Positions 28,624 to 29,430 of a DNA stretch of 43,548 nucleotides are shown here, piece after piece; within the stretch, counting starts at the first letter, position 1, and each line of letters opens with the position of its first letter. Under the pieces are notes generated by a model. That model saw nothing but the letters and a program-made list of their open reading frames with translations. It did no database searches and was not told the origin of the DNA. This DNA is from Bdellovibrionales bacterium (GTDB lineage Bacteria > Myxococcota > XYA12-FULL-58-9 > SYDY01), in assembly GCA_005801425.1 (NCBI GenBank), contig SYDY01000080.1, forward strand, positions 1-43,548, given 5' to 3'. The translations under genes were made by a program, and so were the position numbers.

Positions 28624-28649
28624 GGTGGCGCAGCAAGCTGCGCCGCTAC
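28624..28649. repeat. REP-like palindrome at the end of mutH
   Basis: On the minus strand GTAGCGGCGCAGC-TT-GCTGCGCC; 8-bp perfect stem. Its TAG (28646-28648) is the stop codon of the mutH-type gene. Same GCGCAGCTTGCTGCGC core as at 16872-16896. Confidence 0.85.
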
Positions 28650-29299
28650 GTGTCTTTTAATATTTTTTCCGTAAACACCGCACGCAAATAAAATCCCAGC
28701 GGCAACGTTTGCATCGCACCGTCTTGTGCAGGTGCAACCGTACGCACAAGACGATTTGCGGCTTTGGGACGCACTTGCAGCGCCTCACCTTCTCGCGCAC
28801 TCAGTACACCACCATAGCCGGCACCAATAGCGCCCATCAAATATTCCCAGTCGGAACGCAAACATGCTTCTTGAGCCAAGGATGGCGACCAGAGTACGGG
28901 TACCCCAAATCGACGTGCAGGCATCGGAGCCAAAAGCGCACTTTCAATAGGCACCCACAAAACACACGCCAAACGCTTCCGCAAACGTGATGTTTCCCAT
29001 TTTTCTGTGTCCGCCGTATTCATGTCGATGCTGCAACAAAACGTCGATTCTTTAGGTATTCCATGAGTATTGACAGGAATAGTCTTCAGCTCAACACCCA
29101 ACCCCGTAAAATCAGGACGATCGCCCGCAGCAGGATCGGATCCTAAAATTCGCTCCACAAGTTGTCCTATAAACCCTTTGGAACGACGCGGTTCTTTCGG
29201 GATCGCTACATGTAAAAATTGTGCAACTTCACATACCATGCGCCCTTGCAGTGCCTGCGCACGCACGCACAATTCCTCGATACTTTGTGGCGTCGGCAT
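28646..29299 (-). CDS. mutH: MutH-type GATC mismatch repair endonuclease
   Basis: 217 residues, close to E. coli MutH (229). In E. coli, MutH nicks the unmethylated strand at hemimethylated GATC after activation by MutS and MutL. Homology runs end to end: SIEELCVRAQAL, KGFIGQLVERILGSD, the catalytic DFTGLGVELKTIP (Asp...Glu-x-Lys), WETSRLRKRLACVLWVPIES, RRFGVPVLWSP, DWEYLM, EALQVRPKAANR and LPLGFYLRAVFTEKIL. The start at 29299 has GAAGAG upstream and matches the family N-terminus; in-frame ATGs to 29338 are possible. No Dam methylase, mutS or mutL is in the window. MutH is best known from Gammaproteobacteria, so its presence in this lineage is notable. The stop codon comes from a REP-like element. 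Confidence 0.93.
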   Translation of the reverse strand: MPTPQSIEELCVRAQALQGRMVCEVAQFLHVAIPKEPRRSKGFIGQLVERILGSDPAAGDRPDFTGLGVELKTIPVNTHGIPKESTFCCSIDMNTADTEKWETSRLRKRLACVLWVPIESALLAPMPARRFGVPVLWSPSLAQEACLRSDWEYLMGAIGAGYGGVLSAREGEALQVRPKAANRLVRTVAPAQDGAMQTLPLGFYLRAVFTEKILKDT

Positions 29300-29430
29300 G
29301 CGTATCTCTTCACAAGGCATTCGCGACATCAAATACATCCTGCGTATTCTTGACCCACCCTATGGGGATCGCTAAACAACATACTCGCACATTAAAAGGC
29401 CTTCAAAGGCAAAACACCGGAGAACCTTCC

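Follow-up and report, generated by a model that had tools for sequence, protein, structure and literature searches.

A second lineage of MutH in Myxococcota and its probable place in methyl-directed mismatch repair

Reviews and papers confine methyl-directed mismatch repair to some of the Gammaproteobacteria and regard it as a probably recent development (PMC8034640, PMC8744996, PMC8235422), one of them writing that it is "restricted to a set of E. coli related gammaproteobacteria" (PMC8235422). The gammaproteobacterial system comprises MutS, MutL, MutH and Dam, with a MutL devoid of nuclease motifs, an orphan Dam and a dense distribution of GATC sites; SeqA accompanies the system but is not essential to it. 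Structures of its strand-discrimination endonuclease are available for E. coli and H. influenzae (1azo, 2azo, 2aoq, 2aor), and a MutH-like fold with the same GATC specificity is found in the restriction enzyme Sau3AI (4pxg, 2reu). Here, we describe a mutH gene and its partners in a class of Myxococcota, and in the light of these data the restriction of methyl-directed repair to some Gammaproteobacteria appears to be wrong. The enzyme and the system are already known; what is new is the host lineage and the repeated, parallel loss of the MutL nuclease. We found no report of MutH in Sorangium, or in the repair of Deltaproteobacteria or Myxococcota, in a literature search where subscription journals were thinly covered. 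Sorangium MutH is probably annotated in databases already, so that "unreported" is a limited claim.

The window, i.e. the whole stretch of 43,548 nucleotides analyzed here, is a complete contig (C72) of a draft genome of 3.38 Mb (G000), which has 121 contigs and an estimated completeness of 100%. The genes dam, mutL, and mutS lie on contigs other than that of mutH. The genome belongs to Myxococcota, as does another genome of the same order (G003), which places the host outside Gammaproteobacteria, in agreement with the original prediction. The mutH reading frame runs on the minus strand from an ATG at 29299 to a stop codon at 28648-28646, and the plus strand of the same interval contains 4 stops (Table 1). 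An alternative in-frame ATG lies upstream, at 29338, and would add 13 residues; we took 29299 as the start because the relatives align from there. The neighbors of mutH in the window are housekeeping genes. Across relatives, the conservation of this neighborhood leaves weak traces only, namely an M1 peptidase near mutH in one locus (L083) and an adjoining ABC transporter in another (L007).

Table 1. Coordinates of mutH and of its key codons in the window.
Feature	Position	Strand	Description	Basis
mutH	28646..29299	(-)	217 aa MutH-type GATC strand-discrimination endonuclease (predicted activity)	
Asp63...Glu70-x-Lys72 codons	29084..29113	(-)	catalytic site (E. coli D70, E77, K79)	residue mapping; invariant in 23 Myxococcota MutH
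Arg177-Pro-Lys179 codons	28763..28771	(-)	DNA-contact block (E. coli R184-P-K186)	residue mapping; invariant in alignment
Tyr204 codon	28688..28690	(-)	E. coli Y212	residue mapping; invariant in alignment

The protein had been proposed to align with E. coli MutH along its whole length, and this holds: residues 3-214 are aligned (phmmer E=7e-48), with 43% identity in a pairwise alignment, and the QVRPKAAN and GFYLR blocks as well as the Asp...Glu-x-Lys site are all found. When searched against solved structures, phmmer returned MutH alone, with the H. influenzae protein (E=2e-52) ahead of that of E. coli. Judged from sequence, the match with MutH lies far beyond chance. The Pfam profile of the family (PF02976) gives 89.4 bits for a cut-off of 23 (E=1.6e-25). 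The two NCBIfam profiles match over the full length and remain narrowly under their curated cut-offs (231.2 bits vs 243 for NF003458 and 199.6 bits vs 229.9 for TIGR02248). We infer that these cut-offs are naming thresholds tuned to Gammaproteobacteria rather than a biological feature. Since full-length Myxococcota MutH narrowly miss them, automatic annotation may overlook the lineage.

The residues known from the E. coli enzyme are almost entirely preserved. K48, G49, E56, D70, E77, K79, F94, R184, K186, and Y212 are all conserved in the window protein (where E56 corresponds to E49, D70 to D63, E77 to E70, K79 to K72, R184 to R177, and Y212 to Y204), and the sole change among the residues checked is conservative, from K116 to R109. 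In the E. coli enzyme, adenine methylation is sensed through Y212. The AlphaFold model of the protein (pLDDT 90.7, pTM 0.88) superimposes on the MutH structures 2aor, 2aoq and 2azo_B with TM scores of 0.92-0.94, and the closest structure is that of MutH bound to hemimethylated DNA (TM 0.92, E=1.4e-26). The window MutH thus has in common with the E. coli and H. influenzae enzymes the catalytic D-ExK, the GATC- and methyl-sensing residues, and the predicted fold. It differs from them in its phylum, in the Arg that replaces K116, and in scoring under the NCBI equivalog cut-offs.

MutH is present in all eight genomes of the window's class, the other seven proteins being 53-61% identical to that of the window, and in 25 of the 195 genomes across the phylum Myxococcota. 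Further carriers include the complete chromosomes of Sorangium cellulosum So0157-2 and So ce26 and of Minicystis rosea (NC_021658.1, NZ_CP012673.1, CP016211.1), so that the broader distribution cannot be put down to contaminated assemblies. The MutH of these bacteria are 46-52% identical to the window protein and are accompanied by Dam. However, unlike in the window genome, their MutL retains the core nuclease motifs.

A check suggested along with the original prediction was to look for dam in the same genome. One Dam is encoded there (G000:C15), with 277 bits for a cut-off of 115, and among solved structures its sequence is closest to DpnM (1.6e-62) and then to E. coli Dam (3e-40). It is flanked by genes for a sulfotransferase, an aldehyde dehydrogenase, and a small phosphatase, together with argG and trpS (these two identified by eye); no restriction enzyme is found among them, and this Dam is therefore an orphan. 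MutS1 is also present (G000:C24; 953 bits vs a cut-off of 642). MutS exceeds the cut-off in all eight genomes of the class and Dam in six, no Dam over the cut-off being detected in two MutH-bearing drafts that are 86% and 92% complete (G006 and G007). GATC occurs 316 times in the 43.5 kb of the window, i.e. once per 138 bp, and neighboring sites are never more than 808 bp apart, a density that would suffice to guide repair.

On a wider scale, Dam is over the cut-off in 12 of the 15 genomes reached via named loci (13 of the 15 being Myxococcota) and is found in 14 of the 25 MutH genomes of the phylum. The phylum-wide association between MutH and Dam (p=3.5e-5) disappears when two large families lacking MutH are removed (Fisher p=0.8), and for this reason we do not claim it. 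Several genomes have MutH without Dam over the cut-off: G169, which is complete in one contig, G179, and G188-G194, with a weak match in G191. These genomes may rely on a different methylase or do without one. Two families, f7 and f21 (G009-G014, G164-G168), have Dam without MutH, and the nuclease motifs of their MutL are intact where read, a pattern that is consistent with Dam having preceded MutH.

The other check concerned the endonuclease motif of MutL, DQHAx2Ex4E, which proved to be absent from the MutL of the window genome: the protein reads HGELLASRMLHT where DQHAAHERxxFE is expected, and both ACHxxVR and CPHGRP are missing. Searched as a DNA pattern, DQHAx2Ex4E has no match across the window genome. 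This pattern is too strict, and we scored the motif cores instead, because the last Glu is His or Gln in many Myxococcota that lack MutH. Outside family f19, the MutL of MutH-less Myxococcota have DQHAxxE, (A/G)CHxxxR, and C(P/A)HGRP in all proteins read. In the window's class, the intact set is missing in six of the eight genomes (the window genome and G001-G005). All three motifs are gone in G001, G003, and G004, a VPHGRP remnant is all that persists in G005, and G002 has kept DQHAAYE and lost the others. The MutL of G006, one of the genomes without a detected Dam, has all motifs, with DQHT for DQHA, and that of G007 ends at a contig edge and is incomplete.

Loss of the MutL motifs recurs in further MutH-bearing lineages (G022, G025, G179, G188/G189, G190, and G204). 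When relatedness is ignored and f19 set aside, MutL_C scores below 100 bits in 12 of 24 MutH genomes vs 1 of 61 MutH-less ones. Independent pairs contrasting MutH with MutL loss number at most three informative ones, nearly all in the expected direction, and this comparison is underpowered. The nuclease motifs are retained together with MutH in Polyangiaceae, f14, and f31. MutH, Dam, and a MutL with the core motifs co-occur in Sorangium, Minicystis, and MAGs of Polyangiaceae (L085, L106, L110, L115, L118), so that two nicking routes may coexist there. As so many genomes are in differing MutH, Dam, and MutL states, the order of events by which MutH took over nicking from MutL becomes directly testable, and Sorangium and Minicystis, which are culturable, combine MutH and Dam with a MutL nuclease that appears intact.

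Family f19 (G067-G162, 96 genomes; MutL loci L172 and L222-L231) is a case of its own. Its members have large genomes, appear from this size to be Myxococcaceae-like, and lack MutH, and 95 of the 96 have no Dam over the cut-off. Their MutL motifs have drifted to D[PA]HAALER and C[TI]HGTV. In genus g65 of this family (G158, G160) even the metal ligands of MutL are gone.

We consider it very probable that the mutH of the window is a true orthologue belonging to a complete methyl-directed mismatch repair system native to this class of Myxococcota. By analogy with Gammaproteobacteria, the orphan Dam would methylate GATC sites, and the new strand would stay unmethylated for a short time after replication. 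A mismatch would then be found by MutS, which would load a MutL deprived of its own nuclease site, and MutH, once activated by MutL, would nick the unmethylated strand at a nearby hemimethylated GATC. The nicked strand would finally be removed and resynthesized. The likeness to the gammaproteobacterial system extends to the four genes, the motif-less MutL, the orphan Dam, and the dense GATC sites. The differences are a separate MutH lineage, a decay of MutL that is graded and repeated, and a Dam that is nearer to DpnM than to E. coli Dam.

It is improbable, in our opinion, that MutH acts outside mismatch repair or that another nicking route still serves, the erosion of MutL being then a matter of unrelated drift. 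Such an explanation can draw on the MutH genomes without Dam over the cut-off listed above (the complete G169, G179, and G188-G194), on the MutL nuclease retained beside MutH in Polyangiaceae, f14, and f31, and on the MutL of f19, which drifted in genomes without MutH to the point of losing its metal ligands in g65. However, the window's class has the full E. coli-like set, with the MutL nuclease site lost in six genomes, and MutH is kept in every one of its genomes with invariant catalytic residues.

A phylogeny of MutH bears on the origin of this system. The tree has 72 sequences and is restricted to Myxococcota and Gammaproteobacteria, the latter taken from the 80 loci nearest to the window MutH. 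The gammaproteobacterial MutH form a single clade (support 99/95) that leaves the window protein outside, and the eight MutH of the class form their own clade (support 100/99) beside the other Myxococcota. A recent horizontal import of mutH from Gammaproteobacteria is thus very hard to sustain, and we rejected it on this tree: outside Myxococcota, the closest named relatives among the matches listed do all come from Gammaproteobacteria, but their identity to the window protein (about 41-50%) is lower than that within the class, where the gene is universal. A scan of viral contigs gave no relative, and a search of phages and plasmids found no carrier of a Myxococcota-like MutH, its few matches being gammaproteobacterial MutH. 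The original prediction had left a choice between transfer of the system and a second lineage. The separate clades bear out the latter and argue against a recent gammaproteobacterial import, while an ancient transfer, in either direction, may have taken place. They support placing the window MutH in a second natural lineage that has been overlooked so far.

Rooting with Sau3AI and at the midpoint makes the gammaproteobacterial MutH one branch among those of Myxococcota. The rooting with Sau3AI is uninformative: the Sau3AI branch is saturated (length about 10), and an AU test does not reject a single clade of Myxococcota MutH (p-AU 0.415). That MutH is ancient in Myxococcota, and that the gammaproteobacterial enzymes descend from a branch within its diversity there or close to it, is conceivable, though we hold it to be rather unlikely; if true, methyl-directed repair would not have originated in Gammaproteobacteria. 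One sequence in the tree data comes from a record titled as a MAG of Klebsiella pneumoniae (L135:294-929), and its MutH groups with uncultured Gammaproteobacteria and not with Enterobacteriaceae, so the bin is probably mislabeled.

Finally, there is very little chance that the window protein is a MutH-fold restriction or defense endonuclease akin to Sau3AI, which has the same fold and recognizes GATC: the NCBIfam Sau3AI model matches it weakly (29.8 bits for a cut-off of 300, vs 231 for the MutH model), it is a single-domain protein of 217 aa whereas Sau3AI has two domains and about 490 aa, with 19% identity and a TM score of 0.73 (vs 0.92 to MutH), no restriction subunit or methylase adjoins its gene among the housekeeping neighbors, and mutH is universal in the class. 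A PADLOC search for defense systems gave no match for it, and this candidate was rejected on the NCBIfam scores, the PADLOC result, and the structural comparison. Profiles, tree, and structure all lead to MutH and not to the grouping with Sau3AI enzymes that would have contradicted the original prediction. GATC is not avoided in the window either, the observed count being 1.11 times the Markov expectation. Among the other 4-base palindromes of the window (1-43548), TTAA is over-represented (1.48), and CTAG (0.55) and TATA (0.63) are under-represented.
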